Below, in pieces: positions 17,774-38,205 of a stretch of DNA of 64,000 nt. Source of the DNA: a virus; the IMG/VR virus record IMGVR_UViG_3300030419_003589, positions 1 to 64,000 of that record; one strand, given 5' to 3'. Position numbers and translations under genes: made by a program. A model generated the notes under the pieces. The model saw only the letters and a list, made by a program, of their open reading frames with translations. It was not told the DNA's origin and did no database searches. Each line of letters opens with the position of its first letter. Positions within the stretch are counted from its first letter, which is position 1.

Positions 17774-20700
17774 ATGTCTAAATTCGTACTGACTGCACAG
17801 CTAAAACTACAGGCACCAACTAATACTAGACAAGTTATAAACCAAATGCGGGGACAGCTCCAAGGGCTGAACGTCCCCGTTCAGGTTACTGGTGCCAGTT
17901 CAGCTACAAAGCAGATAAATAAAGTTACAGCCGCTACCAAACAGGCAGCAGGCGCAGCTGATAGTATGGGTAGATCTTTTGGTCTAGCCCTGAAGAGATT
18001 TGCTGCGTTTACTGTTGCTAGTAGGGCTGTTAGTTTAGTTACCAATACGCTAGCCAATGCGGTCGATGAAGCTATAGACTTCCAGAGAGAGCTTGTTAAG
18101 ATCTCTCAGGTTACCGGAAAAAGCATGAGGGAGCTTAAGGGTCTCAATAAGGAGATCACGAACCTTTCTAAAAGCTTAGGTACCTCCTCTAAAGAATTGC
18201 TTGGAGCCACAAGAATCTTGGCACAAGCCGGTATTCAGGCAAATGACTTAAAAATAGCTCTAGATGCCTTAGCGAAGACCACTCTTGCCCCCACCTTTGA
18301 AGATATCAATAAAACCGCTGAAGGTGCTGTTGCTATCTTGGCCCAGTTTGGTCAGGGCGTTGGTAAACTTAAAGAGCAACTTGGTGCTATCAATGCTGTC
18401 GCTGGACAGTTTGCTGTTGAATCCGGTGACCTTATTGGTGCTATTCGTCGTACTGGTGGTGTATTTAAAGCTGCCGGTGGTGACCTCAATGAGTTCTTAG
18501 GTCTCTTTACATCTATTCGTGCTACGACTCGTGAAAGCGCAGAGTCTATCGCTACTGGTTTGCGTACTATTCTTACGCGTATTCAAAGACCAGCTACCAT
18601 TCAATACCTAAAGGAATTAGGTGTTACTCTTACAGATGTCAATGGTAGATTTGTTGGCCCATTTGAGGCTGTAAAAAGACTCAGCAAAGCTCTTGCTGAT
18701 GTCCCTGCTGGTGATCTTAAATTTGTTCAGATAGCAGAACAGCTTGGTGGTTTCCGTCAGATTGGTAAAGTTATTCCTCTTTTGCAAGAGTTTGAAACTG
18801 CTGAAAGAGCTAGACAGGCTGCCGTTGCTGGTGCTGGTAGCTTAGATAAGGATGCTGCCAGTGCGCAACAGGCTTTAGCCGTTCAAATACAAAAGACCAA
18901 AGAAGAGTTTCTTGGCTTCGTCCGTAGTCTCACTGAGACCTCGTCTTTCCAAATAATGGTGAAGACCACTCTTAACTTGGCGAATGCTTTCCTTCAAGTT
19001 GCCGAAGCATTAAAACCATTGATTCCTTTGATTGGCGCTTTTGCCGCATTCAAGTTCGCTGGAGGTTTAGCCTCGTTTGGTAAGGGTGCTGCTAGCGCGT
19101 TTAGAGGCGTACAAGGTAAAGCTGAAGGCGGTAGGGTAATGGCTTTCGCCAGAGGCGGAATAGTTCCGGGTACTGGCAACAGAGATACCGTACCCGCAAT
19201 GCTTCAGCCGGGAGAATTTGTAATACGCAAGAGCAGCGTTAAAAAGCTTGGTGCTGAACGACTTGCAGGCATGAACAAATATGCCGCTGGTGGACAGGTA
19301 TCTGCCTTTGACTCTTCAAAGGGGTATGTAAAATATGAAGATGAAACCTTCTATAAAGGTAAAGGCAAGAAATTCAACACGGCCCCAGTCAGAGGTTCTG
19401 GAGCCACCAGATTCAATGAAGACGACTCGTTCTCAGTAGACCTACAAAAAAGACAAATTAATCTTAACCAGTATAAAAAGAGAATAGAGGCAGACAAAGG
19501 TCTGACAGCAAAATTCAAGAAATACCAAAAGCTAGCCGGTGAGAGAAAACACCAAGCAAGAGGCTTGGCATTTGAAGGCTTGCTGGATTCCCTCGGTATA
19601 GCGAAAACCGCCGGTGGTAGCTCAAGAATGGATGCTATGGATGGCAACAAACTGGTAGAAATCAAGAGTTATGAGAAACAATCAGCAGCGAAGTTAGAAA
19701 AGAATATTGGTGATAAGATGATCGGGGCGGCTCTCAGCCCCATGAGTAGTATCGACAGAAAAGTTGTGCCCAAGCTGACCGAAGCTAGACTAACTGACGC
19801 GGCCAATAAATTTGATTTAGGTCAAGCATGGTTATACCAAGACATAACACCTACTGAGTTAACTGCTGCCTCGAAGAAAGCAGTGGGTAAAAATAAGAAA
19901 TTAGCTAAAGCCCTCGATAAAAAGGGTAGACTCAGAATTGGCAAATTTGCTGCTGGCGGTATTGTTGGCACCACGAAGGTCGGTGCCGCTATTTTAGATC
20001 CAGATGAGCCAGAAAAGAGCAAGCTAGATCTTGGAAATATTAGTCAAGCAGACGTTAAGAACAATAGAAAATTAAAAGCAGATAGGTTAGCACAAAAGAA
20101 CCTCAGTCAATTCTTCAATGGTAGAAAATACTCGCTTACTAGGAAGGGGTTAAATCAGAAAACCTCTGATAGCTTTAAGAAGAACCTTCTCGATGGAATG
20201 GCTGTGGGGCTAGATCATGCTACGGCGGCACTTGGTGCAGACCTTGGTATAGGTGCTCAAAAATTAGACGACGCTTCTAAGCAAGAGTTTATTGGTTACA
20301 TGGCGAAGCGCGGAGCGCCAATGGGTAATGCGTTTGAGGCGGCGGTTTCTGTTTTAGATGGTAAGGGTAAATTTGTAGCAGATCAAGTCAGCGCTCCATT
20401 TGATTTTCCCGGAGGCATTAGTGGCGGCCTAGCTGACAACTTCTCTGGCCTCCCCGGATCTTGGGTTGACGCCAAGACTAGCTATAGAGAAGCGAGCAAG
20501 GCTAACTTTAGGACCAAAGTTGCGAATCAAATTGCCGATGAATTCTACGCTAGTGGCTTGGCCTCACCTAAAAAGAAAGCTGCCAAGGGAGGCTCTATAT
20601 CTGGCAAAGATACTGTCCCAGCACTTCTTACCCCCGGTGAATTTGTAGTTAATAAAAAATCCGCTCAGAGTATTGGCTACGCGAGTCTTAACCGAATGAA

Positions 20701-23700
20701 CAAAAAAGGCGTTGCTGGATTTAACGCCGGTGGCGCAGTTGGTGTTCAGAAGTTCGCAGCAGGCGGGGGTGTCGGCGGCGGTGGTATGGGCGGCTTGGCC
20801 AACCTCGCTATTGTCTCAGGAGTGGTATCTACTGCGTTAGGCAATTTGGGAGATAAGTCTGAGAAAGCTACCGACGCTCAGTTTAAGATGGGTGTTATTG
20901 GAGAAAAGGCTGGCCAACTCTTGATGGTACTTCCCCTAATAGCCATTGGGATGCTCAAGGCTGATAAAGCAATTAAAGCGTGGACAAATAAAACAAACGA
21001 AGCAACAAAGGCCGCTGAAAACAACGCCAAGTCAGCAGGGGGTGGCGGTGATGAAGATCAGGACGCAGCAGGTACTAAGGCGGGGGCTAAGGGGGCTAAA
21101 ACAGAAGCTGAAGAGCAGAAACCTTCCGCCGCAGGCAAAACAAAAGCCGCAGCAGCAGCTGATGCTGAGTTACAGAAAAACGCTAAGAAGGAAGCCAAAG
21201 CGGAGAAAAAAGTTGAAAACGCAACTCAGCAGAAAAAGAAATCTGAAGAAGCATTTAAAGCTGCACAAGCGGAGGAGAAAGCCGGGGAAAAGGCTGTTAC
21301 TGCTCAAAGGGATGAGGTCACTCAAAGGAATCTCACCGCTGATGAGAAAAAGAAAGATCTTAAGAAAGCCAAAGAAGTACAAGAAGACGCTCATAGTGTA
21401 AGAAGCCATGACAAGAAAAATGTTAAAAAAGCACAACAGGAAGAAAAAGCAGCGCATCAAGAAACCGAATCGCTTAGATCGCGTCAGGTAGCAGCCGATA
21501 AAGAGAGTTTGGCAGCGAAGGGGCAGCAGGCGGGGGCGAGAATCCGAGAGCAAGAAACCGCGCAAAAGGTGCAGCAAGATCAGGGCAAACTAAACCAAGA
21601 AAAGAATAATCTTTCGCAGAAAGAAGCGAGCACCGCGAAGAAGAATCAGAAGATAGACTCGCAGCTTGAGACGAACCAGAGAAGACAAGCCGCAGCAAAA
21701 GATCGGTTCATGTCAGATAAGAAGGAGGGCAAGGATGTTAGTGGTCAAGAAAAAACAATTCGCAAGCTTGAGGCCGAAGAAAAAAGATTAAAGAATGCAA
21801 GAGCTAAAAATACAAAGGCTACCCAAGATCAAAAGAAAAAGACGCTTGACGCAGCTAAAGCCCTAAGAAAATCAAAGGCAGACCAACGATCTGCAACTAA
21901 AGGCGTAAAATGGGCCAATGATCGTGCTCGTGACGCTGCTAAAACTCAAACTCAGCTTGGGCAAGCGTTTTCTAACAATAGTAAACGTATCAAAAAAGCT
22001 GAAATAAGTAGAGTCAGTGCCACCAGCAAGTTGGTTGTATCCAACCAAAATATGGTTAAAGCAGACCTAGCAGCACAAAGGGCTAAGAAGGCGAGTGAAA
22101 AAGCTACTAGAAAACAAAATGGAGCACAAAGGAGACTTGGTCAACTTCAAGAGAAGCAGAGAAGCTTATTTGACAGAGTAACGAACGCAGGGAAGCGGCT
22201 TGTTACATCTCACAGGATACTGGAGGGCAAACAGAAGAATCTAGCCAGAGCACAGAAACAGACCGGTCTTAGTGCTGCAATATCGGCCAACCACCAAATG
22301 AAAGCGAACGGAGGCCTTATCAGATCCAACCAGAGGCTTGTCCGAAGCAGAAGAACGCTGAATAAGAGCGCGAGAAGACTTGGCCGAAATATTGTCAGAG
22401 CCAGCGCTTGGACTAATAAGTGGGTGATGGGCATGGGGAATGCTAATCGCGTGACGGCGAAAACAACTTCATGGATAGGCCGAAAGTTCGTTAATGGCAT
22501 TAGACGTGCTGATATCGCAATGAGAAAACTCAGCAAAAATATCGACCGCACGAGAAGATCGGCGGATCGGGCCGGTCCGGGAATGATGAGGCGAATGGGC
22601 GGTGGAATGATGCGTATGGGTAGTGCGCTCGGTGGAATAGGCATGATGGCTGGTATGACCGCTCAAGCCATCTCTTCTGGACTTTCAGAAATAGCACAAA
22701 GAAGATCTGACCAAGCTGTCGGCAGTGGTAATGTCAGAGGGGCAGCAGGTAATGCTCGCGCCGCAGCTATGTCCGAAGGTATGGGACGCATGTTTACCTT
22801 GGGTGGCATTATGGAATTAGTGTCGGGCGGGTCAAAGAGGTTCATGGCGGGTGTAGCCCAAGATGTACAAAACAGAGGAGCGATGGCGGCGGGAGAAGCT
22901 GCACGAACGAGAAGCGAAGGTCTCTTTGAGGCCGTAGATGAGGGTAGAGCTACTCAAGACGATATTGGTACGCAGATTGGTCAAATTTCTCGACAGGCAA
23001 TTGCCGAAATTGATAGTGAAACAAAGAGTGGTTTCAAAGCTGACGAGAAAACGCGAAGACAAGCAATGGCCAACTTAAAAGAAAGTGAAAAGAAATACGT
23101 AGAAGGGCTTGGTAAAACAAAGGGCTCTTTGGAAGAGTTGATGGCGGGCATAGATAAGCTTGGAGGCGGAACCGCTTACTCTAGAGAGCAGCTTGTAAGA
23201 CTCGCCATGCAGAGTTTTAAGCTGGCAGAAGCACAAAGGGCGCTAGCAAAGGCGCAGTTTGATAATCTTAAAGTAATGTCTGCGTTTAACAGAGCGGGTC
23301 TAGCTGTTAATAAATTCCTTAACTCATTAAATACGGGATCATCCACTTTAGCTGATTCTATTGCTACCGTAGAGGCAGCTGCTACAAACATGGGCATGGG
23401 AGGAGAGGGAGCAAAAGCCCTAGAAGACATAAGACAACGAGTGCTTAATGCCGCAGCCGGTGGAGACGAAACAACCGCTCAAGGTAAGGCTATAAATCGC
23501 CAATTCGCTAGAGCCAACGTCGCCAACGAGTTCATGAGTTCCATACAGAGCAGGATAAGCAATCTTGATATTAACACCGGAAGTGAAGAGGCGGCAAAAC
23601 AAAGGTTAGAAACTGCTCTACTGGCCGGTGTCACAGACGCAGATGTTAGAGCTGCTATTCAGGGTCAGATCGCCTCAATGGGCGATATCAGAGGTAAGGA

Positions 23701-25204
23701 CGCTAGCGCGCTAATAACACAGATAACCGCTGGCCTAGGCCCACTAAGAGAGGGGGCTATGAAGGCGGCGACGGCGTTGCTGAAACATGAGCAAACCATT
23801 CTTAAGCTAACCCAACGAAGAAGACAGACTGAACTTCAATACATAGCGGTACAAAGACAGGTAATTGATGCGCAATTACAGTTTGCCAAAACGTTTGAGG
23901 AGTTTGGTGGTTCTAAACTAACTTCAGACCAAAAATTATCTGCCAATTTAGCCAAGTTTAATCTTGGGGCTAGAGACGCTGGTGTACGAGAGTTAAGAAC
24001 CGGCAGCGTAGCTGACATACAGAGTGTGGCAGCCAGTATTCAGACCAGAATGAATCAACAGCAGATTGACAGGCAAACCGGTCAGTTCAGAGACGTTGAA
24101 GGTCTTGACAAAGACAGAATTAAGGAAACCAATGCTAGTATTAAAGACTTGGTTGGATTTATCAACCAACAAATTCAGGCGACCAGAGAACAGATAGCTG
24201 TTATTGAAAAGAGAAATGCATTAGAGCAATCTTCTATTGACGCGCTACTCGCTGGTGACATAGCTGGATTTATAGATCAGCAGGGTGCAGCCGGAGCTGC
24301 GGCAGCATTGAGATCTGGTGACGCTGAAATGGCGTCGTTATTTAGCCCGCAGGCTATGGGGCAAGCTCTTAAACAATTAAGGGAAGAGGGGGCTGACTCC
24401 GCAACCCTGCAAAGAGCTGGCGAGATTGCCGCAAGTTCTGTTGGGCTAGATGATAGAGCTGGACAAGTTCTTACGGGCACAACACAAGAACTGAACGATC
24501 TAAGAAATCAAGGACAAGCACTTGCAGCCGTTGGGGGCCAAGTTTCCCAACTAATGGCAGAGAGCGCTAAAATGGAAGTAGCAAGCGCAGAAATGGCAAT
24601 CGAAAACGCCAACGTAGTATTTAAAGAGACAATGGAAAGAGCTGGCAGAACACAAGAAAGAGCAGATGCTGGCCTAGGACTTGCAAGAGGGGGAATGGTA
24701 TATGCAAGCAGAGGAATCTTTGTGCCAAGAGGTACCGATACCGTTCCAGCTATGTTAACTCCGGGAGAATTCGTCGTAAATAGAGCTGCGGTGCATCGTG
24801 GAAATAACTTGCAGATCCTGAGAGCTATGAATGGCAATGGTGCCACAGTTGGTGCTGGTCCAGCAGGAGCCGCTAATATGTCCGGAGGGGGACAGGTGGG
24901 ATACTATCAGTTTGGGGAATTAGTTAGAGGCATGGGAAGTATATTTGGTGAAAGCCTTCCAAACCTAAAAGCTATTTTTGATGGATTCTCCTCCGCTGTG
25001 GCGAACCTGTCCAATCTTGAACTTGGCGTTACGGTCACGAAGCCTATAGATGTAAACGTAAGACTCCTTAACGACAACATACTAAAAGTTATAGACGACA
25101 GAATTGCACAGGCAGTATTAGAAGGAGTTGCCGAAGAAGCTCCAAAATGGAAGACAAATCAGTCGGGTGGTACTCAAAGATCTGAAGCGATCATACCAAA
25201 ATAA
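17774..25204 (+). CDS. tail tape measure protein with embedded nuclease-like domains
   Basis: 2476 residues. Residues 95-320 (ISQVTGKSMRELKGLNKEI, ILAQAGIQANDLKIALDAL, GGVFKAAGGDLNEFLGLFTS) are the conserved TP901-type tape measure core. Three copies of a GG...DTVPAMLxPGEFVxxK loop lie near 453-487, 936-962 and 2306-2340. Between them are two PD-(D/E)XK-like patterns: Glu601...Asp620...Glu629-Ile-Lys631 and Glu855...Asp877...Asp899-Ala-Lys901. Residues about 1073-1545 form a very long Ala/Lys/Glu coiled coil, and about 1596-1640 is a Gly/Met-rich hydrophobic segment that may insert in a membrane. If the helical length rule (0.15 nm per residue) held over the whole chain the tail would be about 370 nm; the folded inserts make that an upper limit. 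Confidence 0.85.
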   Translation: MSKFVLTAQLKLQAPTNTRQVINQMRGQLQGLNVPVQVTGASSATKQINKVTAATKQAAGAADSMGRSFGLALKRFAAFTVASRAVSLVTNTLANAVDEAIDFQRELVKISQVTGKSMRELKGLNKEITNLSKSLGTSSKELLGATRILAQAGIQANDLKIALDALAKTTLAPTFEDINKTAEGAVAILAQFGQGVGKLKEQLGAINAVAGQFAVESGDLIGAIRRTGGVFKAAGGDLNEFLGLFTSIRATTRESAESIATGLRTILTRIQRPATIQYLKELGVTLTDVNGRFVGPFEAVKRLSKALADVPAGDLKFVQIAEQLGGFRQIGKVIPLLQEFETAERARQAAVAGAGSLDKDAASAQQALAVQIQKTKEEFLGFVRSLTETSSFQIMVKTTLNLANAFLQVAEALKPLIPLIGAFAAFKFAGGLASFGKGAASAFRGVQGKAEGGRVMAFARGGIVPGTGNRDTVPAMLQPGEFVIRKSSVKKLGAERLAGMNKYAAGGQVSAFDSSKGYVKYEDETFYKGKGKKFNTAPVRGSGATRFNEDDSFSVDLQKRQINLNQYKKRIEADKGLTAKFKKYQKLAGERKHQARGLAFEGLLDSLGIAKTAGGSSRMDAMDGNKLVEIKSYEKQSAAKLEKNIGDKMIGAALSPMSSIDRKVVPKLTEARLTDAANKFDLGQAWLYQDITPTELTAASKKAVGKNKKLAKALDKKGRLRIGKFAAGGIVGTTKVGAAILDPDEPEKSKLDLGNISQADVKNNRKLKADRLAQKNLSQFFNGRKYSLTRKGLNQKTSDSFKKNLLDGMAVGLDHATAALGADLGIGAQKLDDASKQEFIGYMAKRGAPMGNAFEAAVSVLDGKGKFVADQVSAPFDFPGGISGGLADNFSGLPGSWVDAKTSYREASKANFRTKVANQIADEFYASGLASPKKKAAKGGSISGKDTVPALLTPGEFVVNKKSAQSIGYASLNRMNKKGVAGFNAGGAVGVQKFAAGGGVGGGGMGGLANLAIVSGVVSTALGNLGDKSEKATDAQFKMGVIGEKAGQLLMVLPLIAIGMLKADKAIKAWTNKTNEATKAAENNAKSAGGGGDEDQDAAGTKAGAKGAKTEAEEQKPSAAGKTKAAAAADAELQKNAKKEAKAEKKVENATQQKKKSEEAFKAAQAEEKAGEKAVTAQRDEVTQRNLTADEKKKDLKKAKEVQEDAHSVRSHDKKNVKKAQQEEKAAHQETESLRSRQVAADKESLAAKGQQAGARIREQETAQKVQQDQGKLNQEKNNLSQKEASTAKKNQKIDSQLETNQRRQAAAKDRFMSDKKEGKDVSGQEKTIRKLEAEEKRLKNARAKNTKATQDQKKKTLDAAKALRKSKADQRSATKGVKWANDRARDAAKTQTQLGQAFSNNSKRIKKAEISRVSATSKLVVSNQNMVKADLAAQRAKKASEKATRKQNGAQRRLGQLQEKQRSLFDRVTNAGKRLVTSHRILEGKQKNLARAQKQTGLSAAISANHQMKANGGLIRSNQRLVRSRRTLNKSARRLGRNIVRASAWTNKWVMGMGNANRVTAKTTSWIGRKFVNGIRRADIAMRKLSKNIDRTRRSADRAGPGMMRRMGGGMMRMGSALGGIGMMAGMTAQAISSGLSEIAQRRSDQAVGSGNVRGAAGNARAAAMSEGMGRMFTLGGIMELVSGGSKRFMAGVAQDVQNRGAMAAGEAARTRSEGLFEAVDEGRATQDDIGTQIGQISRQAIAEIDSETKSGFKADEKTRRQAMANLKESEKKYVEGLGKTKGSLEELMAGIDKLGGGTAYSREQLVRLAMQSFKLAEAQRALAKAQFDNLKVMSAFNRAGLAVNKFLNSLNTGSSTLADSIATVEAAATNMGMGGEGAKALEDIRQRVLNAAAGGDETTAQGKAINRQFARANVANEFMSSIQSRISNLDINTGSEEAAKQRLETALLAGVTDADVRAAIQGQIASMGDIRGKDASALITQITAGLGPLREGAMKAATALLKHEQTILKLTQRRRQTELQYIAVQRQVIDAQLQFAKTFEEFGGSKLTSDQKLSANLAKFNLGARDAGVRELRTGSVADIQSVAASIQTRMNQQQIDRQTGQFRDVEGLDKDRIKETNASIKDLVGFINQQIQATREQIAVIEKRNALEQSSIDALLAGDIAGFIDQQGAAGAAAALRSGDAEMASLFSPQAMGQALKQLREEGADSATLQRAGEIAASSVGLDDRAGQVLTGTTQELNDLRNQGQALAAVGGQVSQLMAESAKMEVASAEMAIENANVVFKETMERAGRTQERADAGLGLARGGMVYASRGIFVPRGTDTVPAMLTPGEFVVNRAAVHRGNNLQILRAMNGNGATVGAGPAGAANMSGGGQVGYYQFGELVRGMGSIFGESLPNLKAIFDGFSSAVANLSNLELGVTVTKPIDVNVRLLNDNILKVIDDRIAQAVLEGVAEEAPKWKTNQSGGTQRSEAIIPK

Positions 25205-25224: not shown

Positions 25225-28200
25225 ATGTCTAAACCACACGTTAAAAACTTACAATGTTTATGCGTAAAGGACGCTTCGGCAAAAAGCGTCTCTGCGGCTG
25301 GCGGTGTGTTTAAAGCCAAGATTAGGGGAATCTCTAATTTTAGAAGCTCCAAGAGTTATGGCTATGGCAAAATATCATCAATAAAAACAATCTCTAATAA
25401 AGAGTTTAGGTATCGTGTAAAACCCCCTGCCGGTACTCAACTGGCGATTGATAGTGAGGGTCCGACATACAGAATATATGTTATACCTAATCAAGAATGG
25501 GAAATCACCCCTCCTAGAACTGGCGATAGTGTCACTCTAAAAGACTCCTTAAACAACAGCTATACATATACCGTACAAAAATATCACGGCGTATACACTG
25601 AATCAAATGGCGTTAAAGTAAGCGCACTCGACATTGACGGGTATCTTGGTAGCCCTAAGCCCGAAGACATATGCGGCTCAGAGGTTGGCTATACCTGTAT
25701 TGGAACCTTGGACTATACGGTTCACTCCAATCCCATCGCAAATTGGTGTCGTGGTCTTAATTCTACGCTTTCTAATCAAGGCTTTATTCATAAAAGCAAA
25801 CTCAGCGGAGGTGTTTACTTTAGGAACTTTGAAGGTCTTTCCGGCATTGGTGTAATTCATAGTGGGGTCTTGACCGCACAATATAGCCTAAGAGAGAAGC
25901 TAGAAAAAGAAGCCCATCTCAATCCAACATTCCTAGACAAATTAGCCGGTAATTTTAATGAGTTTGGCTGCTCACAAAAGCTCTATCCAAATAAAGACCT
26001 AGCTCTTGATAGCGGAAGAGATCGCTTCACAGGCCCATCAAGAGAGTCTGGAAATCTTTATACGTTTATAGATGACGGCGTAATAATTGGCAATGACTAT
26101 CATAAACACCTTGGTCAAGGCAGTGTTGTTTCTGATGATAGTGGCACTTGGATAACACCAAGTAGTATTCATACGGAAGGTCTATTCCAATATAAAAGTG
26201 AAGTAACAAACTTCCATATCAGACCTGACGACACTAGATTCAGGATGAGAGCCTCAGCTCCCATGAATAACTATGAATCTAAGATTGCCCCACTGTACAC
26301 AATTGAAAACATTACCTTCTCCGACCCATCCGGAAATGTAATGATTCGTTATGAGAGTATGGATATTCTCGGAGACGTAGATTACAGCAATCCAAAGACC
26401 TTTGTTAACTATGCAACGTACTCTTTTAAGCCAGTTTCCAACACATTCGATGAGTATGACTGGCAACGCAGAACAGAACCATACACACACAACATTACCG
26501 GATATCAACTATCTTTTGATGTCAGAGTAACACCTAGAGATGACGCATTTGACACAGGGTTTAGCGATGGCTTTGAAGAAGATTATGTCCTACATGACAC
26601 CTATCATCACGGTGATGACTATTTAGCTCTTGATGGATCTCCGTTATCAACTCAAGATCAAACCCTAATTAATCCCACCAAAGGGCTAAGAATTTCCGCT
26701 GTAGAAATTTGCAATAGCGGCGGGAACTGGTTGAGCACTTCTACTGGACCAAGACGAGAAGACTATTTTCAGCTATTTTTAGATGTCCCCGCCAACGGCA
26801 GAAGATTAGAGAAGAAGATTTTGCCCTCCTTCTTTGCTTTAGCTGATACACATAATAGCGGTATCTTCCCAGCAGTTAGTAGTATTTGGTACCACAAGAA
26901 TAAGCCAATGTGGGACGCAAGCGCTAGCCTACTTGGTAATAACTTAGATACATGTGGCTCTGAGCAGATCGTTAAAGCGCTGCAAACTGAGACTACCCTA
27001 GACTACGCAGAGCTTCATAGCACCGGCCCTCACTTTGATTCCGGTAAAATGATAATGAAGTTTGGTTATGGTCATGGGGCTATAAGCGAAATACAACAGG
27101 GTGCATTTGGATGTGCATTTGACCAGAGCACTTGTTCTGGTTGGTATCATCCTAGTGGAGCTTTTAATTCAGAGATTAAAAATCCCGCTGGATTTGATAA
27201 TAATTATTTGGTGGTGGAATCAATTACCTTAAAGGTTAAAGCTAAGAAAGCAACTGATTCCCGTGATTATGTTTTAGACGTAGTTGGCTGGAGTGACGAT
27301 AAGTTATTAAACGTAACAAAGGCTCCTAGCGGATTCCTGCAAGAACCTGCTCGTATTCATGTAAATTCAGATGTCATTACCAGCGAGGGCGTGCACCCAT
27401 CTATTTCTGGCTATTGGGATAATGACGATGATCTAGCCCTGTCTACCAGAAGTCTCTCTGAAAAGGAAAAATACCTAGAAACAAGCGGCAACTTAGGTGG
27501 AGATCATTATTCCCTAACAAGGTATCCAGTAGTTACCACCACCGAGTTTGCAGACTATGAGATACCATTAAAAATATACCAAGATGACGTAGAGGTTGGG
27601 CTCTCTAGAAATTATAATGTAAGTGCCATGTTAGAGCACTTGTATTTAGACATATATCCCTTGCCTAGCGGAGCGGCTATCGCCAGCGCCCACTTATTGG
27701 TTAGATATGCCCCGCAGGTGGCATTGCAACTTGGTGTGCAGGGTGGAGAATGTTACAATACAATAACAGACGAGAGATCTGAAGGTAAGTTATTCCCGAC
27801 AACTAGACAGTCTAATGATGCCATTCTAAATGCAGGCTCCGGATACGGGCCAATATCCACTATAAGCAATATCCCCCATACTTACAGTACCCCTTCTAGT
27901 ATAAGAACAAACTACGCAAGAAGATGGAAGGGTGCTAATGGTGTGTCTAGAGGGCCGTTTGATCCAGATATGTTTAGCTTCGGCTTTGAAAATCCACATG
28001 TAGACTCTCCGTTTATATCTGGACATTACACGTTTGATCATATAGCAGGAAGTCACTTTAAGCCTAGGGATATGGGCTTTGGTGATAACGGTATTGATGT
28101 AAATCTGTTTGGAGCAGTTTCTGAAGCATCAGACACGCATAAGAATGTCGGCTGGAGGTTCGCTAGTGGAAACTTGTTTACCAATGAGCTACCCGGATAT

Positions 28201-31200
28201 AGCGGGGATTATCAAACTTCTGACTGGACTGCGCTATCTGGTGGAATTGATATGGAAGTTACATTCCAAGGAAACCCCCTATATGGTAGATTGGCAGATG
28301 CCTTCGATAATATAGTTAGGGTCTCAGGTCAAGGTGGAGGAAAATACATTGACTTGTCACCTGACGATGGAATTATAGACACCTCTGGCGGCTTCTCTGT
28401 ATTCTTAAGATTCACGCCAGATGCTATTGTTTCTGGGGTAGGTTATGACCTGTTTAATTCCGGAGTCCTATTCTCCAAGTGGGAATTGGCCAATCATTTA
28501 GATTTTGCATTGGGTTATAAAGATGGATACTTGTGTGGGTATGCTAAAGATGACGCAGGCTCCCTTATAACCGTACAAGACGATGTTAAGTATAGCGGAT
28601 ATCAATACCCACTATCTGTAATACTTACTTATAATGACCATAATAGTAGCGGTCTTAAACTATATACTGACAATGAGGCATATGAAGGTAGCTGGACGAC
28701 ATTAAGAGCTAGCTCCGCCCCATTCCGAAAGGTTCACGTTCCTAATCATGGGGCAGATGAACCCTGCTTACAAGTTGGCTGGTCTAAAGGATCTGGTGTT
28801 GGCTTTAACATGCTAGTATCAGAGTTTGGCCTTTCTACTTATAGCTCCGGCATAGACACCATGTTTGGGTCTGGTACTAATATTGTACAAGTAAATCCTG
28901 ACCTTACCTATAAACAAGTTACAGCCCAGTCGTTCTTAGAGGGGCACAGATCTAAGTTCTTCCAGCCGGGAGAATCGCATACTCATGACAGCTATAAATT
29001 ACCAACCTATGTAGATGAAGATCCTCAAGACTGGTCTATTGGAGATTTCCGGTCTATGGCCTTTGGTCTTGGGTTCTCACGCTTAATGAAAAGAAGCGGT
29101 AGAGACTTAATCAACTTCCACCTGAGAGACAGTGGCATCCCCTATGAAAATAAGCTTACTATTCATCAGGAGACATGGCCTTCAACAGTAAGCAGTGGCG
29201 TTTGCTATCACACTCAGATAGAAAATGATTTCTTAAGATTCCATTTAAGTGACACATCCGACAACTTCCACTCTGTTCATAAGAGAATAACTAAAAGCTT
29301 GCCGATTGGCTACAACTTCAAAGAAAAGGCTTTGGTCGTTGAGACTGTACTTGAGCATAGGTTCAGTGGAGATATTCAATGGCCGGAATGTCGCCCCACA
29401 ACATTCCACCTGTGCTCAGAGCATAAACACTCACATCAAGATCACTACAGTGGCCCCAGACTTATTGTTAGCCTTTATACCAAGAAAAAAGAACCCTACT
29501 GGGTTCCAAATGAAGACAACTGGGGATTGGTAAATAGAGCGATACACTACGTACATCAAGCTAGTGGTATTATAAAATTTGATAGTAAGTTTGATTACCA
29601 CAATCTGATAGACGAGTCTGAAAAGTGGGCGTTGTTCCCAGCCGAACCAAGACTGACTGAATTTACCGAGAAGTACTACTCTCAAGACGTAGACGATATG
29701 TTCTTGCAGTACGATTTGGTTTACCCGTCTGGTGGACAGTTTGAGTCTAACATAGATGTTCATACCGCCCATGTAAGAATGGATGACGCACTCATCCAGT
29801 GTACACCTGATTCAGGTATTTTAAATTTAATATCTAGCGGTGCATATGTATCAGAAGTTCGTGATTTTAATCTTTTCACTGAGGGGTGGCAGCCTATAGA
29901 TAGTGGCGTACTTAACCTGAATACTCACGGCCCAGTATTAGTGCACGAATCTGGGTTTGAAATAAATATTAGCGGTGGTGACAGGAGAGATGCATACTTA
30001 CCATTCCGCACCGTCGCCGTTGCTGTTGCTAGTGGTGAACCTGAATTTAACTTACATACCGCCGGTTGCTGCAATGTGATCAGTGGGGCTTCTGGCACAT
30101 TTAATCTAGTTACAAACGGCTTAGGCCTATCTTCCGTACAAATGCCACTATCCGTCTCTAATGACGGGTTAGTACACACACCAAGTGGCGGTCAGCTCCC
30201 TCTGTACACCTACGCCCCATCTGGAAACAGCACTGGTTTCTTCCAGAAGTTGCAGCTAAGAATTGAGAACAATTTTGCTGGTGGAGCTGTTAGCTCTGGC
30301 ATTGAGATGCCAGTCTTTATATTGGGCTCTTCCCCATTAGTTGACAGATCTCCGGTTGTCACAATGCCTCTGGTTGTAGTTAATCAGCAATTTGTTTCTT
30401 CTGGATCTTTGAGCCTTGTCATTAAAGATGACGGCGTAACCAGTAGAGCAGATTCTTCTGGAGAGTCTGTTGATGCATCAGATCCTACAGCCACAGGTAG
30501 ACAAATTGGCGTAAATCTATACCTGCCGAACTACGGCGGTGTGGGCTCTACGTATCTAAGGTGGTTTAATCACAACTATGGAAGCGGAATAGAGCTAAGA
30601 GATAATGCTTTCGCTGCCATAGATGTTGGAAATGAGATAAGAGGTGTTGATCTAATTGGCTATGGAGCTTGCGACAGCGACAGCCCAAGAAAGGCCATTG
30701 ACCCAGCTATTGTCACCGATGAAACGACATGGAGACCAGAAACGTGTAATGAGGGCGGTATTTTTAGAGCCATTAACACCTACACCAATTCCGGGGCAAT
30801 AAACTTTGCCGGAGAAACCGGATACAGTGGTAATTACTACGGGTTTAGAAAATATACAGGATTAATTCCACACGCACCTTATTATGCAACTCTTAAAATA
30901 ACTACTGGTGATACAGACTCGATTAAAGTACCTAGAGATTTTGAAGAGTGGGAATATGGAATGTGTGGCCCAAATTGGAGAGGCGACCCAGCAGTAAGCG
31001 ATCAAGGCGACGGAGATTGCGACACCGACATCATATACTCTGGCGTTAAACTGATTGGTGATTATCCCTACATGAGTGGAGATTCATCAATAACGCCCAT
31101 TTCCGGAAGAAACATATCTGACACTTACGGTGAATCTGTAGCTGTTACCAATGATCTCATGGTTGTTAGCTCTCCGAAGATAGAGATTCCAGACGCTTCT

Positions 31201-34200
31201 GGCTATGCCATTCCAGACGCTGGAGCACTTTTCCTATATAGGAGAGAGGAAGATGTAGCTGGGGAAAAAGCCAAATGGACAATGCATGACAAGCTAATGC
31301 TCCCCTCTGGATTCAGACGTGATTATGTAGAAAAGGTTCATGAGAATCTTATGGTGTTTGACCAGTTTACTATTTCTGGAAGACAGTGGCAAATAGGTCA
31401 GGAAGGCAGACAGTTAGGAGCCTCTCTTGACGTAGCGACTAGCGGCGGGGGTGAAAGGGAAACCATTGTTGCTGGAGCACCTTTTGCAAAGTTTACCAGA
31501 AAGTTCCCACATATTGAAACGTCAGGTATTCCAACATGCATGATGGTATTTGTTGATAAATATAAATACTGGCCTGATGAGGTCCGAGAAATCATCAATG
31601 CAGGAAAGAGATGGGAGCATCTATATAAATATTGGTCTGCCCCTTGGAACGCCGGGACCGCCAATGAGTGGCAACCAAGTCTGGACGTAAAGGTTATAGT
31701 ATACCAACTGTCTAACCATGATGATAAAAAACCCGAAATCCCAGAGGAATTTGAGCACAGCTTCAAACATCACTATATTCCCAGAATGGATGACGAGGAG
31801 TTCTTGGAACTTACTGGTGTTAGAAATGCTTATAATGCCATGTACAGTGGCATCGTCGATGGGTTCAAGGAGATGTTCCCATATCCCACGACGACTGCAT
31901 TTAAGCCTCATAGTGGCATACCCCCAATTGTGGGCATATTTAAAGAAAATAGTCACAGCACATTCTTCGGCGGAGCCTTTCAGTTTGGCGGCATGAGCAA
32001 TGAGGATGTTGTAGATGACTTTATTGATTTCTATGAAGAATATAGCCATACGAGCGGAACAGCAAACCCAGAAGTTCCGGTGCCCGTATCTGGACATGTT
32101 AGAGTAGAGAAATACGCATCAGAAAAAATCGTATCGACTACTCGAACGCTTATAAATAACACGCTGGACTCTGGTTATCTGCTAACCACAAACTTCAAAA
32201 ATACGCCATATCCAGTTATGAGTGTTATCACTAGTGGTGTTGGTCAAAAATGGGCGAAGTCAAACGCCACAGAGTTCCAGATACCACCAGCCTCTGGCGG
32301 TAGGGTTTACATCTTTGAAAAAGAAAGTGGAGTATTTAATTGCGTTCAGTCAATTATACCTTATTCGTATAGAGACCATTGTTTCACAAGAGAGGACGGC
32401 GATCCTGACGGCGCATTCTGTGGTCCCAGTACCGAGCCTTTCCTCGGCTCTCTGGAATACAACGATAGATTCGGTCACTCTGTCGCTATAAGTAAGGATA
32501 CAAGCATCATTTCAGTAGGATCTCCTTGGACTTATGTTCCGTGTGAGATCTTTGAAAGACAAGACAAAGAAAACACCAGAATGTATAATCACGTCCGCGA
32601 CTGGCTTGTCTTTAGAAATCTTCAAATACCTTTGGCTAGATACGATGCATTAGCTTTGGAACATGGTACCGACTATGCTCAAAAACAGACCTATCACGAA
32701 CTTGATCCAACTAATAAGTTCTGGCTAAGAACAGATGGTAACTTCTGGGCAGACCCCGACGAAGATCCTGATAATCCGGGAGTTGGCGGCGGCCCGATTG
32801 AGTTGTACAAACCTATATATAACTATAAATATGCCGACATTGCCGGTACGGGAACTTGGAGCTTTATTCAGGGAGAATTCTGCGGAAGCTCCAGACTGGG
32901 CTATAGCACATCTGTAAGTGACGACGGAGATTCCGTTGCTTTTGGTGCCCCGACAGACTCAATGAACATGTTTGAAGATTCTAATGTTTGGTACAACTTA
33001 GATGGCACGAAGGGTAGCACTTGGGCTTCATATACTAACGCTGGAGCCGTTAGGATGTTTGAGTCAAAAGCATTTGTCCCTCATAGCTCAGTTGTTGAGT
33101 TCACTAGATTTGGAAACCTAGACAGATCTGTACATGTCGAACAGCGAGAAGCTGGCTACTACGATAGAATGGACGTTTATTTCAAACCTAAAAATCTTCC
33201 ATTCAAGAGAACTGAATTTTCAGACTTAGAAATACCTACAGATGCTGGACTCGCATTTATCATTACTCCAGAGATAGACGCTGCTAGCGACGAAATAATC
33301 GCAAATATAAAGAACTGGCTCGCCTTGGGAGACAGAACGCTCGTACTCGTAGGGAACGACCCCCTCTGGGAGGAAGATGGATTATATAGACAATCCAATG
33401 ATATATTAAATAAAGTACTGAAAAAACTTGGCTCCAGAATGAGGATCGAGGCTGCTGATACTGAGTACGAAGCGTTAGTTGGAGCTGGCAATCGTTTTCA
33501 GGAAGCGGACGGGTGTGTAAGTGAAGCGGACGTGTCCGCAGACAGGTATAATGTTACAAAATCAAAAGTTCCCCGAAATTCGCATATCGACTTCTACCCG
33601 TCCCCAGTTGTTCCGGGCAAAATGTTCGCCAAGGGCGTGGGAAAGATTGTTCAAGATCTATCCGACGTAGGTCTTACCGACTACTTTGTGCAATCCCCTT
33701 GTGACGAGTTAAATGAAGAGGTTTGTAACTTGCCACTCAAGGATCGGGGCGATATTAGAGCAGAGTGGTTTGCGCAGACTGTATCGGGGCCGAAATGTGA
33801 CGGCACAGTTAAGTACTGGCATAATTGGCCCTTCCACTATGCTAATAAGAACCAAGCCCAACAGTTTGGTTGTTTTTACCCAGAATCACCAAAGCCTCTA
33901 ATAAACAGGCCTCACGAAGACATCGTTCCCATTCTTACAGCAGCGGAATGGGTTGATTTCTGCTGGTATCGACCAGAGAAGAAAATTTGTAGAAAAGTTA
34001 ATGACTGTCATTTTGAAGAGTACACAATTCCAACTGGTTATAATGTCTGTCACTTTGAGCCGAACCAATTAGAGCGGATAGCTTTCTCCGCCTCCGGAAA
34101 TAACCTGAATAACATTATAGGTGAGAGTCTGCATGACTGGCGCATGGAACTTATTCCGGATGGATGGGACAAAGATGCAGGATTTATAGATCCTGAACCT

Positions 34201-37200
34201 GCTCAAGGAAGAGACTGCATATTGCAAGGTGTAGCAAACGTGGTTGAAGAAGTAACCATTGAACAGGAAGAAAAAGTACTATACGACAAATGTCCGATAC
34301 TTGTTGAAGAACCTTACTACTATAAAGACGCTGATGGCAACAAGATAGATGCGAACAACAGGGTGCTCATACTTGCCCATATGAATGGCGAAAGCGAAAG
34401 AGGCTTTACTGACACTCATGGTCCGAACAACCGGGGTGGAAATGACGATCAAAACATAATCTTCTACACAAACTTAGCAAAGAAAGATTGCCAGTCCCCC
34501 GGAGATATAGTACAGCTCGGCGGATGGACCGAGAGAACGTCCTTTGAAGAAGCCTATGAGTATTCAATTCTATCAAGGAAGTTATCATCTTTTGGTTTTA
34601 ACGTGACGGAGAATGCCGTTTATGGAGCAGGGGATGATATTGATGCAACGAAAGTAGTTGACACAGTTTGGGTAGCTAATCCGTACGGTTTACCAACCGA
34701 CACAGATATTGAAGTTCTAAAGAGATGGTTAAAAAATGGCAACAAAAAACTGATTGTTACCTATAATGGGGCATCTCAATTTGACGATCAAAGATTAGCA
34801 GCAAATGTCGCAACGCTTCTTGAAAAACTTGGCCTAGAAAGTAGACCTTGGAGCCTGCCATGTAAGGGAGACTATTTCCGCTATGTGCACCCCGGCTGGC
34901 AACATCCCGACCCCAACGATAGAGATATACACGTTATTAGGGGGTCGAATCTAGAGAAATGTTGTCCATATGATCCATATTACCAGAAAATAGACGCAAC
35001 GTCCGATATTTTTGACGGTTGCAAGACTGGGTATGGGTGGAACAGCAATTACAACGAGCAACACATGACACAGTGTGAGAAGGTCTCGTTTAAAGCTGAA
35101 CAACCTTCAGACTGGTCATTTGAAGGCGGTAATAATGATAAAGGCTGGTATGATTTTATTCCAATATCCGGAGGAAAGAATGCCAAGGAGCTATTGTGGT
35201 ATAACACCCCTGTGCTAGATGAATGCCCAGTGGTTGACGAGAAGCAGTACTGGTTCATGAATGGTTTAGCCAGTGGTGTATTTGATGTCGAACCGGGATC
35301 TGGTTATAGAATATTTATAGATTGGGTTTCTGAAAATAAAAACGAAATTCGTCCCATAGGCTGCAATATTGAACACGCAGCATCGCTAGGTGTAACTAGA
35401 GAAGAAGATGGAGCGGCAAATTGCCCCTGTTTCTGTAAGGTATGTCAGGACGAAAAACCTTGTGATTGCCACGATACGTCAAAAGAAATTCTTAATGACC
35501 TTCGACAGAACAAAGACACTGACGATTTCTTCACATGTACAACATGGACTCCATTCCGCACGCTCAAAGATAAAATCAGAGAATGGCCTTTGGGCGCAAC
35601 AGAAGTTGGGTTCCCACACCAAGCTTATGCTGATGTTAGGGCGGATAGCACTGGTAAGATCGCAATTGTATTTAATAGCCAGAAATTTAATTCGTCGAAC
35701 CAGCTAAAAGCACATGTTGAAGAGTACGGAGGTTTCCCAAAGACCCCTAGAATTGTATCTATCTCAGGCTGCCCTCTTCCGATATACACAGAAGAAGTGA
35801 ATGAGGAGATTAAGAAATATAGAAGGGTATGCGTTCAGAGAGAAGAATGTGAAATTATTCCCGAGGACAAGGGATGCATAGACGTATTTAGACCTATTAA
35901 ACACCTTAGTGAAGAATATTGCAACGTAGAAGCCCCACCGTGCGAGGAAGATGACGGCAACAACGATGGAGACGGCATGGGCGGAATGGACCCACCTGAA
36001 CAGGACGATCCAAAATGCTGTCCTCCAAGGGGTGAGACTTACATTGAAGACGGTCCAATCATAGCAGCCGAAGAGTTTGAACACTTCACCGCAGGATTAA
36101 ATGGATACCAAAGGTCGAAGATCATAGTGATTACAGACTCTACTTTGGTACAAGGCCAGTGCGAGCACTATAGAAACGATTCCGTTGGCGAGAATCAGAA
36201 TTTTCTTAGGAGTTTGTATCCAATTAGCCCCCATAAGAGAACTGGAGAAGAGTTAGGATTTAATTGGGATGTAGTATCTAGCGATAGGCAGTTCCAATTC
36301 GCTCAAAAGCTTCGCGCCCCAGAAAGAGGTAGCCCATCTAAATATAGAGTAGCCAGTGGAATACCAAAGACTGTATTTCCATACTTCGGACTTGATGCAC
36401 TGGTGGGAAGTAAATGTAGCGTAGAGCATTATATAGATAATGAGGATACATACCATCCAGCCGAGCAACTAAATCGTCCGATGGAACCGCTGCAACTTGG
36501 TGAGGAGATAAAGAAGTTTGGACGGGACGTTGCAACTGCCGAGTGGCATCAATTCCCTAAATTTAGCGGTGATTTCTTGGGGTGGGGAACGTATGACTTA
36601 GGTAGTCACAAACAGGACTTCTTAAAGGATGCTTCCCCCGGAGGAGGTATAAATGAACTGATGAAGGTATCTGATGGTACCGATTTCTTAGATCTTGATT
36701 ATTATACCTCTGGATGTCCGGGTGATCTATTTGGATGGTCAGTTGACTTAACAAACAATAAGTTAATAGTAGGTACCCCATTCAATGGTTTTGTCACAGA
36801 GAATGCTGCGAGCGGCATTAGTGGTATAGTACAGTGGCATGAAATTAAGAACGATCCCGGCCCACACAGGTCTGGCCTAAATTTAAGTCAAGAGGGCGGA
36901 GCTGGAGCCGCATTCTACTTTGAGAGGACTACTAGCGGATCAAATGTTGTTAGTGAAAATCTACCTTGGGAATTTAAACAGAAGATTAAACCTAGCAGTG
37001 TCAATGTCGGGCTTGACGGAGCTACCATAGCTTCCCTAACGACCGTTAAGGGTGATCATGATCTTGATGCCGACTTCTCCCTTACTCACGGCGGTAGAAC
37101 AGACAAGTTTGGATACTCTGTAGCAATTGATGCTGACATGGTTGCGATAGGCGCTCCTCATCACGACTACGAGACTCTCCATGAGCATATTTATAGCGGG

Positions 37201-38205
37201 GCCGTTGTCACCAACGACCTGAATACTGCGTTCCAAAGAAAGAGCTTTAGTGCCGAATTTGACATACCCTCACATAGATTTTATGACTTAGGAAGTTCTG
37301 GAGTAAGAGTTGATTACTTTGACACTGATAGTGGGGTCATGGTTTTGAATCACGGAGCTGTTTACAACTATAGACATAGCATAGTAGACTGGCAGGAAAG
37401 AACTAAAGAGTGGATCTTTGGAGAAAAGCTGGTTTCACATGGTCATCACGCTAGATCGGGAAGTTACTATGTCGGATCTAACCTGACCGCTAGCGGATGT
37501 GAAAACGATTCGTTTGGTCGTTCTGTTTCATTATTTAGATCAGAAAGAGGGGATAGCGATTACACCTTGGCTGTTGGCTCTCCATTCCATGATCATCCTA
37601 CAAGCGGAAACCATATAACAAGCGGAGTAACGGACGCCGGAGCAGCATATTTATATGACGCAATGTTAAGAGAGCAAATTCCAGCTCTACCTAACTCTGG
37701 AAGCTGGATTGATGTTAAAATATTTGGAGCAAGAACAGCAGATGGAATGAATATGTTAACGAATAGGGTTTACCAAAACACTGATGGTGAACCAATAACA
37801 TATCTCACATCAGGCTATGTTTACGCTAATCCACATGGAGACTTGTATATAGAAGCTTCTGGCTTTGACCCCTCTATCAAGGGGTTTGTAGCCCACAGAC
37901 CATTTGTAGAGTCTGTTATAGGAGACTTCGTTGGCGGAGAAGGTGTTACCGGCTCCTTGAACCTCATTACATCTGGAAAACCAGTAGATGTGAACGCATC
38001 TATGAACGTGATGTTATCTGGCGCTCCGTCCGCTAATGTGTATAATAATATGAACTTAAGGACTTTTGGCGTGTCTGGTTCCCCAAGCGGAGACATGGTA
38101 CTCTTTACTTTAGCTCCAAGTGGTGCTTCTAGTGGAACCCTCAATTTGAACGTAACTAGCACCCAAACTACGGAAAACCTAAATTTAAGACTTAGGGGTA
38201 AATAA
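25225..38205 (+). CDS. 4326-residue tail protein with split FG-GAP propeller
   Basis: A giant virion protein directly after the tape measure. A concanavalin/LamG-like domain lies at about 1036-1210 (GGFSVFLRFTPDAI...DFALGYKDGYLCGY). Residues 1528-1740 and 4236-4326 hold repeats of the type SGxLNLxxxG. Seven FG-GAP blade signatures start near 1967, 2064, 2416, 2558, 3836, 3962 and 4097, each with FGxSVA...VAIGAP and most followed by GAxxxY. An insertion of about 1,270 residues lies between blades four and five and holds two related alpha/beta domains (about 2673-2756 and 3046-3210), a six-cysteine cluster (3400-3415) and an acidic linker. No signal peptide is seen. Inferred role: tail tip or side fibre scaffold with carbohydrate- or protein-binding modules. 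Confidence 0.7.
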   Translation: MSKPHVKNLQCLCVKDASAKSVSAAGGVFKAKIRGISNFRSSKSYGYGKISSIKTISNKEFRYRVKPPAGTQLAIDSEGPTYRIYVIPNQEWEITPPRTGDSVTLKDSLNNSYTYTVQKYHGVYTESNGVKVSALDIDGYLGSPKPEDICGSEVGYTCIGTLDYTVHSNPIANWCRGLNSTLSNQGFIHKSKLSGGVYFRNFEGLSGIGVIHSGVLTAQYSLREKLEKEAHLNPTFLDKLAGNFNEFGCSQKLYPNKDLALDSGRDRFTGPSRESGNLYTFIDDGVIIGNDYHKHLGQGSVVSDDSGTWITPSSIHTEGLFQYKSEVTNFHIRPDDTRFRMRASAPMNNYESKIAPLYTIENITFSDPSGNVMIRYESMDILGDVDYSNPKTFVNYATYSFKPVSNTFDEYDWQRRTEPYTHNITGYQLSFDVRVTPRDDAFDTGFSDGFEEDYVLHDTYHHGDDYLALDGSPLSTQDQTLINPTKGLRISAVEICNSGGNWLSTSTGPRREDYFQLFLDVPANGRRLEKKILPSFFALADTHNSGIFPAVSSIWYHKNKPMWDASASLLGNNLDTCGSEQIVKALQTETTLDYAELHSTGPHFDSGKMIMKFGYGHGAISEIQQGAFGCAFDQSTCSGWYHPSGAFNSEIKNPAGFDNNYLVVESITLKVKAKKATDSRDYVLDVVGWSDDKLLNVTKAPSGFLQEPARIHVNSDVITSEGVHPSISGYWDNDDDLALSTRSLSEKEKYLETSGNLGGDHYSLTRYPVVTTTEFADYEIPLKIYQDDVEVGLSRNYNVSAMLEHLYLDIYPLPSGAAIASAHLLVRYAPQVALQLGVQGGECYNTITDERSEGKLFPTTRQSNDAILNAGSGYGPISTISNIPHTYSTPSSIRTNYARRWKGANGVSRGPFDPDMFSFGFENPHVDSPFISGHYTFDHIAGSHFKPRDMGFGDNGIDVNLFGAVSEASDTHKNVGWRFASGNLFTNELPGYSGDYQTSDWTALSGGIDMEVTFQGNPLYGRLADAFDNIVRVSGQGGGKYIDLSPDDGIIDTSGGFSVFLRFTPDAIVSGVGYDLFNSGVLFSKWELANHLDFALGYKDGYLCGYAKDDAGSLITVQDDVKYSGYQYPLSVILTYNDHNSSGLKLYTDNEAYEGSWTTLRASSAPFRKVHVPNHGADEPCLQVGWSKGSGVGFNMLVSEFGLSTYSSGIDTMFGSGTNIVQVNPDLTYKQVTAQSFLEGHRSKFFQPGESHTHDSYKLPTYVDEDPQDWSIGDFRSMAFGLGFSRLMKRSGRDLINFHLRDSGIPYENKLTIHQETWPSTVSSGVCYHTQIENDFLRFHLSDTSDNFHSVHKRITKSLPIGYNFKEKALVVETVLEHRFSGDIQWPECRPTTFHLCSEHKHSHQDHYSGPRLIVSLYTKKKEPYWVPNEDNWGLVNRAIHYVHQASGIIKFDSKFDYHNLIDESEKWALFPAEPRLTEFTEKYYSQDVDDMFLQYDLVYPSGGQFESNIDVHTAHVRMDDALIQCTPDSGILNLISSGAYVSEVRDFNLFTEGWQPIDSGVLNLNTHGPVLVHESGFEINISGGDRRDAYLPFRTVAVAVASGEPEFNLHTAGCCNVISGASGTFNLVTNGLGLSSVQMPLSVSNDGLVHTPSGGQLPLYTYAPSGNSTGFFQKLQLRIENNFAGGAVSSGIEMPVFILGSSPLVDRSPVVTMPLVVVNQQFVSSGSLSLVIKDDGVTSRADSSGESVDASDPTATGRQIGVNLYLPNYGGVGSTYLRWFNHNYGSGIELRDNAFAAIDVGNEIRGVDLIGYGACDSDSPRKAIDPAIVTDETTWRPETCNEGGIFRAINTYTNSGAINFAGETGYSGNYYGFRKYTGLIPHAPYYATLKITTGDTDSIKVPRDFEEWEYGMCGPNWRGDPAVSDQGDGDCDTDIIYSGVKLIGDYPYMSGDSSITPISGRNISDTYGESVAVTNDLMVVSSPKIEIPDASGYAIPDAGALFLYRREEDVAGEKAKWTMHDKLMLPSGFRRDYVEKVHENLMVFDQFTISGRQWQIGQEGRQLGASLDVATSGGGERETIVAGAPFAKFTRKFPHIETSGIPTCMMVFVDKYKYWPDEVREIINAGKRWEHLYKYWSAPWNAGTANEWQPSLDVKVIVYQLSNHDDKKPEIPEEFEHSFKHHYIPRMDDEEFLELTGVRNAYNAMYSGIVDGFKEMFPYPTTTAFKPHSGIPPIVGIFKENSHSTFFGGAFQFGGMSNEDVVDDFIDFYEEYSHTSGTANPEVPVPVSGHVRVEKYASEKIVSTTRTLINNTLDSGYLLTTNFKNTPYPVMSVITSGVGQKWAKSNATEFQIPPASGGRVYIFEKESGVFNCVQSIIPYSYRDHCFTREDGDPDGAFCGPSTEPFLGSLEYNDRFGHSVAISKDTSIISVGSPWTYVPCEIFERQDKENTRMYNHVRDWLVFRNLQIPLARYDALALEHGTDYAQKQTYHELDPTNKFWLRTDGNFWADPDEDPDNPGVGGGPIELYKPIYNYKYADIAGTGTWSFIQGEFCGSSRLGYSTSVSDDGDSVAFGAPTDSMNMFEDSNVWYNLDGTKGSTWASYTNAGAVRMFESKAFVPHSSVVEFTRFGNLDRSVHVEQREAGYYDRMDVYFKPKNLPFKRTEFSDLEIPTDAGLAFIITPEIDAASDEIIANIKNWLALGDRTLVLVGNDPLWEEDGLYRQSNDILNKVLKKLGSRMRIEAADTEYEALVGAGNRFQEADGCVSEADVSADRYNVTKSKVPRNSHIDFYPSPVVPGKMFAKGVGKIVQDLSDVGLTDYFVQSPCDELNEEVCNLPLKDRGDIRAEWFAQTVSGPKCDGTVKYWHNWPFHYANKNQAQQFGCFYPESPKPLINRPHEDIVPILTAAEWVDFCWYRPEKKICRKVNDCHFEEYTIPTGYNVCHFEPNQLERIAFSASGNNLNNIIGESLHDWRMELIPDGWDKDAGFIDPEPAQGRDCILQGVANVVEEVTIEQEEKVLYDKCPILVEEPYYYKDADGNKIDANNRVLILAHMNGESERGFTDTHGPNNRGGNDDQNIIFYTNLAKKDCQSPGDIVQLGGWTERTSFEEAYEYSILSRKLSSFGFNVTENAVYGAGDDIDATKVVDTVWVANPYGLPTDTDIEVLKRWLKNGNKKLIVTYNGASQFDDQRLAANVATLLEKLGLESRPWSLPCKGDYFRYVHPGWQHPDPNDRDIHVIRGSNLEKCCPYDPYYQKIDATSDIFDGCKTGYGWNSNYNEQHMTQCEKVSFKAEQPSDWSFEGGNNDKGWYDFIPISGGKNAKELLWYNTPVLDECPVVDEKQYWFMNGLASGVFDVEPGSGYRIFIDWVSENKNEIRPIGCNIEHAASLGVTREEDGAANCPCFCKVCQDEKPCDCHDTSKEILNDLRQNKDTDDFFTCTTWTPFRTLKDKIREWPLGATEVGFPHQAYADVRADSTGKIAIVFNSQKFNSSNQLKAHVEEYGGFPKTPRIVSISGCPLPIYTEEVNEEIKKYRRVCVQREECEIIPEDKGCIDVFRPIKHLSEEYCNVEAPPCEEDDGNNDGDGMGGMDPPEQDDPKCCPPRGETYIEDGPIIAAEEFEHFTAGLNGYQRSKIIVITDSTLVQGQCEHYRNDSVGENQNFLRSLYPISPHKRTGEELGFNWDVVSSDRQFQFAQKLRAPERGSPSKYRVASGIPKTVFPYFGLDALVGSKCSVEHYIDNEDTYHPAEQLNRPMEPLQLGEEIKKFGRDVATAEWHQFPKFSGDFLGWGTYDLGSHKQDFLKDASPGGGINELMKVSDGTDFLDLDYYTSGCPGDLFGWSVDLTNNKLIVGTPFNGFVTENAASGISGIVQWHEIKNDPGPHRSGLNLSQEGGAGAAFYFERTTSGSNVVSENLPWEFKQKIKPSSVNVGLDGATIASLTTVKGDHDLDADFSLTHGGRTDKFGYSVAIDADMVAIGAPHHDYETLHEHIYSGAVVTNDLNTAFQRKSFSAEFDIPSHRFYDLGSSGVRVDYFDTDSGVMVLNHGAVYNYRHSIVDWQERTKEWIFGEKLVSHGHHARSGSYYVGSNLTASGCENDSFGRSVSLFRSERGDSDYTLAVGSPFHDHPTSGNHITSGVTDAGAAYLYDAMLREQIPALPNSGSWIDVKIFGARTADGMNMLTNRVYQNTDGEPITYLTSGYVYANPHGDLYIEASGFDPSIKGFVAHRPFVESVIGDFVGGEGVTGSLNLITSGKPVDVNASMNVMLSGAPSANVYNNMNLRTFGVSGSPSGDMVLFTLAPSGASSGTLNLNVTSTQTTENLNLRLRGK
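31120..37680 (+). repeat. seven FG-GAP-type blade repeats
   Basis: Blades begin with: YGESVAVTNDLMVVSSP (31126), LGASLDVATSG (31414), FGHSVAISKDTSIISVGSP (32470), LGYSTSVSDDGDSVAFGAP (32896), FGWSVDLTNNKLIVGTP (36730), FGYSVAIDADMVAIGAP (37108) and FGRSVSLF...LAVGSP (37513). Seven is the canonical blade number of integrin-type propellers. Blades five to seven are evenly spaced (about 130 residues), while earlier ones are spread by insertions. Confidence 0.7.

Follow-up and report, generated by a model that had tools for sequence, protein, structure and literature searches.

The tape measure protein of a group of uncultured aquatic phages appears to carry an exchangeable, polymorphic nuclease-like effector cassette into the cell, a reading to which we assign a probability of roughly 55%. 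Delivery of enzymes by the tail at the start of infection is suggested because the nuclease-like site is fixed while the rest of the cassette differs almost completely between near-identical phages. The protein is encoded in a 64-kb window, the whole stretch of viral DNA that was analysed and a portion of a 122-kb virus record. An open reading frame at 17774..25204, on the plus strand like the loops, cassette, linker, and domain copies described below, encodes a product of 2476 aa that by sequence belongs to the tape measure proteins, matching the four PHROG tape measure families 4211, 1272, 28, and 167 (E 1e-28 to 1e-4), and the N-terminal part matches, via a relative, annotated Bacillus phage tape measure proteins. 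A search with the conserved N-terminal part found relatives encoded on 344 viral contigs.

The cassette lies between two conserved loops. Loop 1 (GGIVPGTGNRDTVPAMLQPGEFVI, aa 461-484, 19154..19225) forms its left border and loop 2 (GGSISGKDTVPALLTPGEFVV, aa 939-959, 20588..20650) its right border, enclosing an exchangeable segment of 461 aa (aa 485-945, 19226..20608) that is represented by 72 distinct cassettes in this phage group and is swapped at the DNA level in relatives. A third loop (DTVPAMLTPGEFVV, 24737..24778) is found near residue 2322, about 150 aa before the C-terminus. The DTVPA..PGEFV loop is widespread, occurring in more than 120 viral stretches, in mycobacteriophage tape measures, and in cyanophage proteins. 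Within the window's cassette, copy 1 (aa 505-727, 19286..19954) is a PD-(D/E)XK-like domain, for which five orthologues, model topology, and a fold search serve as evidence, and contains E601 (19574), D620 (19631), E629 (19658), and K631 (19664) in the pattern GLAFE...SRMDAM..LVEIK, followed by K648 (19715) as a candidate motif IV residue. Copy 2 (aa 728-938, 19955..20587), a nuclease-like domain supported by an HMM, invariant residues, and an AF2 model, contains E855 (20336), D877 (20402), D899 (20468), and K901 (20474) in the pattern GNAFE...PFDF...WVDAK, and K915 (20516). The E, D, (D/E), and K residues of both signatures stand in the translation exactly where they had been proposed, each signature preceded by a G-x-x-F-E lead. 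The accompanying proposal that each copy is followed by a GG..DTVPA..PGEFV loop was mistaken: copy 1 has no such loop behind it, just a GG linker at the boundary between the copies (aa about 724-732, 19943..19969), so the two DTVPA loops flank the pair. Linkers resembling this one, of the form GG[IL]IQKFAxGG, set modules apart in the cassettes of relatives.

Conservation within the cassettes is concentrated on the signature residues. The 72 distinct cassettes, cut out between loops 1 and 2 from related phages, show a mean column identity of 8%, and the copy 2 domain is nonetheless detected by HMM in 68 of them; these 68 domains form 54 clusters at 50% identity, with a median pairwise identity of 20%. 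E855 and D877 are present in all 68 homologous domains, position 899 is D in 58 and E in 10, and K is retained at 901 in 66 and at 915, in the helix after motif III, in 64. The expectation that active-site residues would be conserved in homologous tape measures was thus confirmed, these being the most conserved positions of an otherwise hypervariable region. Copy 1 is rarer than copy 2, and its E, D, ExK, and downstream K are kept in five of five orthologues, with L281, L300, L159, and L076 retaining G.AFE, D620, EIKS, and K648. Both copies contain the motif set of PD-(D/E)XK enzymes, with D at motif II, (D/E)xK at motif III, the usual E at motif I, and a helix residue at motif IV. The dN/dS ratios of 0.18 for copy 1 and 0.12 for copy 2 indicate purifying selection on both. 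From the pattern of residues, the presence of an active site in the cassette domains is strongly supported. Counting against a nuclease effector, the HMM misses copy 2 in four of the 72 cassettes (on reading, L244 and L269 lack such a motif, and L251 and L210 contain divergent forms), and K901 is replaced by T in two more (L220 and L262). In one known PD-(D/E)XK family, T stands at motif III and the motif IV helix has basic residues (PMC1913061).

Longer cassettes contain extra segments with GG-rich linkers between them. An ADP-ribosyltransferase-like module lies beside the nuclease-like domain in L224:8878-9498 (PF03496, E 2e-4, just under the curated cut-off), and P-loop modules of the GPAGSGKTT type are found in L278:8348-8833 and L289:10196-10717 (E about 2e-3, under the curated cut-offs). 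A segment with a DxDRT motif, HAD-phosphatase-like by eye and with no library match, occurs in L242:9230-9685 as well as in L200, L220, L227, L231, L233, and L289, and GNAT-like segments were likewise recognised by eye, with no library match. Two more recurrent modules of about 100 aa (one in L221, L223, and L237, the other in L219, L228, and L236) occupy the C-terminal end of the cassette and terminate in a DYEG- or DYE-like motif.

Structure prediction did not establish the PD-(D/E)XK fold that had been proposed for the two copies. The copy 1 model, built from five sequences, is of low confidence (pLDDT 57), although its elements follow the order expected of PD-(D/E)XK enzymes, helix(E)-strand-strand(D)-strand(ExK)-helix-strand. 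A fold search of copy 1 against the PDB listed 23 matches, each insignificant (E 3.5-9.7). Eighteen of these 23, all with E>3, are what we take to be PD-(D/E)XK nucleases (EcoRV, EndoMS, and the cap-snatching endonucleases of bunya- and arenaviruses), and a further two, also at E>3, are viral L proteins with a domain of this kind; the list is redundant and amounts to about four independent families. The copy 2 model, built from 69 sequences with AF2, is confident (pLDDT 89.8, pTM 0.84) and places three N-terminal strands before a series of helices, E855 within a helix, D877 next to an isolated bridge, D899-A-K901 on a strand, and K915 in the last helix, with no clear strand from the E helix to D; Foldseek found no match to it in the PDB or BFVD. 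Sequence profiles gave a similar picture, as neither domain nor its profile matched a nuclease family in Pfam, PHROG, NCBIfam, PADLOC, or PDB sequences. In hhalign comparisons neither UPF0102 nor VRR_NUC was matched, in a setting where those two failed to match each other and some controls were off-frame. A match to the clostridial neurotoxin binding domain (E 0.04) was rejected as chance, lying far below the cut-off and overlapping the active-site stretch. In tblastn searches of the cassettes against 50,697 phage records, the nuclease-like domains were unmatched and the loops alone found matches; among 399 bacterial genomes, the copy 1 profile had no match and the sole match of the copy 2 profile was in a contig of phage origin that had been binned with the seed genome. 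The low confidence of the copy 1 model, the unmatched copy 2 fold, and the lack of a nuclease match in the profile libraries all weigh against a nuclease effector. The two signatures had also been described as diverged copies with the spacing of restriction-like nucleases. Both signatures are present, but homology between the copies is weak (hhalign E 6e-4 and probability 29%, with only motifs I-II aligned), and the spacing is textbook in copy 1, whereas in copy 2 the distance from D to DxK is 21 residues with no short hairpin.

These features of copy 2 leave some room for an alternative that we consider unlikely, yet the most credible of those weighed, in which the domain is a metal-dependent enzyme of undescribed fold other than a nuclease, such as a phosphotransferase or hydrolase with a protein or nucleotide as its substrate, whose E, D, D/E, K, and K merely resemble those of PD-(D/E)XK enzymes. 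The confident but unmatched model, the 21 residues in place of a short hairpin, and the other enzyme-like modules in cassettes would all fit such an enzyme. The textbook spacing of copy 1 argues against it, as does the order of motifs I to IV, which fits PD-(D/E)XK enzymes down to cases where motif III loses its lysine and the next helix keeps one (PMC1913061).

The cassette is exchanged as a unit. Identity in the PD domain is almost independent of identity in the N-terminal part (Spearman 0.09), and where N-terminal identity exceeds 90% the median identity of the PD domain is still 30%. L275 and L274 share 8,320 nt at 99.9%, followed by an unrelated cassette of 851 nt and a return to about 95% just before loop 2. 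The same pattern is seen when L273 is compared with L275 and L274, and in the pairs L233/L232 and L240/L239, the flanks of swapped cassettes being 99-99.9% identical over 8.3 kb upstream and about 95-96% downstream. Between G063 and G064, compared over 74 kb with identity mostly at 86-99%, no other replaced block is as large as the cassette. Most of the remaining large differences examined are insertions of genes, of which two are HNH-endonuclease-like by sequence. For the window and L281, dS is 1.58 in the N-terminal part, compared with 0.26 in copy 1 and 0.23 in copy 2, indicating a more recent common origin for the cassette than for the sequence around it, and dS comparisons point to recent sharing in L226/L219, L180/L295, and L166/L239 as well. 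A conserved carrier with a variable, exchangeable effector region is a feature of polymorphic toxins. Another is a neighbouring immunity gene that varies together with the toxin, but inspection of the flanks of swapped pairs and of the 74-kb comparison of G063 and G064 revealed no immunity gene replaced allelically near the cassette, which argues against a classical toxin-immunity pair and counts against the effector reading.

Strong allelic swapping would also fit recognition of host factors, the segment then serving host contact or evasion of defence rather than catalysis by selecting the route of entry through the inner membrane or by escaping host proteins that bind tape measures. Both have parallels, as the entry route of lambdoid phages correlates with a tape measure segment and SNIPE, a host nuclease, binds to tape measures (PMC13190303). 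A binding surface, however, is not expected to keep invariant charged residues in an otherwise unalignable domain, nor does it account for the ADP-ribosyltransferase-like and P-loop modules, and we regard this explanation as rather improbable. Less probable still is a nuclease with a task in the virion, such as trimming or releasing the end of the phage DNA, in the manner of T4 gp4, a virion protein with a restriction endonuclease fold whose DNase activity is needed for packaging (PMC7824862); such housekeeping leaves the swapping among near-identical phages unexplained, and L244 and L269 have cassettes without the domain. Coincidence, conceivable where K, E, and D are as abundant as in low-complexity tape measure sequence, is refuted as the source of the short acidic and lysine motifs by the invariant columns and by shuffling: a relaxed signature regex matched 64 of the 72 cassettes and a strict one 41, where shuffled cassettes averaged 3.6 (maximum 11) and 0.01 matches, respectively.

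For the nuclease-like effector cassette, the following mechanism may be proposed. The tape measure occupies the tail lumen and would enter the cell ahead of or together with the DNA; entry into the cytoplasm is supported for other tape measures. The cargo held between the two conserved loops would bring with it a near-universal module with a metal-dependent PD-(D/E)XK-type site, composed of a helix E, D, (D/E)xK, and a K in the next helix, of which the window's cassette would carry two. After entry, the nuclease-like domain would fold and cleave nucleic acid of the host or a rival, or RNA, early in infection. Swapping of cassettes as units would be expected if targets or countermeasures shift fast, and a target missing from the phage, modification of the phage's own DNA, or a brief period of activity could each explain how the phage does without an immunity gene.

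Searches of the open-licence literature yielded no account of phage tape measures that carry a PD-(D/E)XK-like domain or a swappable cassette, the nearest precedents being the Tme effector and the MuF toxins. Tme, from the contractile injection system of Streptomyces davawensis, is an effector related to tape measures whose endonuclease domain, which has been tested, works after ejection, and so resembles the present protein in its tape-measure-like carrier; its nuclease, in contrast, is of the EndA type (DRGH), C-terminal, accompanied by DUF4157, and part of a bacterial machine rather than a phage, and the available sections of that report describe no polymorphic internal cassette (PMC11126660). 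MuF polymorphic toxins of temperate phages are likewise virion proteins with variable toxin domains, some nuclease-like, for which delivery into the cell has been proposed, but MuF is a head protein with a C-terminal toxin and usually a small candidate immunity gene next to it (PMC5576092), whereas the present cassette is internal and tail-borne and has no immunity gene replaced allelically alongside it. Polyvalent proteins are injected multidomain phage proteins that similarly join unlike enzymes, including ADP-ribosyltransferases, and a term search of their description found no tape measure case (PMC5512222); the cassette differs from them in that its alleles replace one another between fixed loops. 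The tape measure of mycobacteriophage TM4 also contains an enzymatic motif, but this is a peptidoglycan hydrolase motif targeting the cell wall and no nuclease (Piuri and Hatfull 2006, via PMC13277306). With the PD-(D/E)XK superfamily the cassette domains share the sequence motifs I (E), II (D), III ((D/E)xK), and IV (K) (PMC1913061), but the copy 2 fold is unrecognised and a significant profile link to members is absent.

More tentatively, and with the odds somewhat against it, the tape measures of a large uncultured phage group may be a general, modular delivery chassis with an internal cargo bay between two conserved loops that is injected first and needs no dedicated immunity gene for protection, its contents, acquired by exchange, comprising a polymorphic nuclease of partly undescribed fold and ADP-ribosyltransferase-, P-loop-, HAD-, or GNAT-like modules. 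If effector delivery holds, the tail ruler would double as a syringe barrel for early effectors and contain a defined site where phages trade enzymes, tape measure variation and a length far beyond the needs of a ruler would be explained, and uncultured phages would supply candidate nucleases; enzymatic action by tape measures in the cytoplasm would become directly testable. Elsewhere in the window, the tape measure gene is adjoined by one for a giant protein of 4326 aa (25225-38205) that matches the FG-GAP repeat PF14312 (E 1.7e-20) and has no PHROG match, and a 353-aa protein (1333-2394) has at its C-terminus a short match to phrog_415, a family of phage polynucleotide kinases (E 2e-5).
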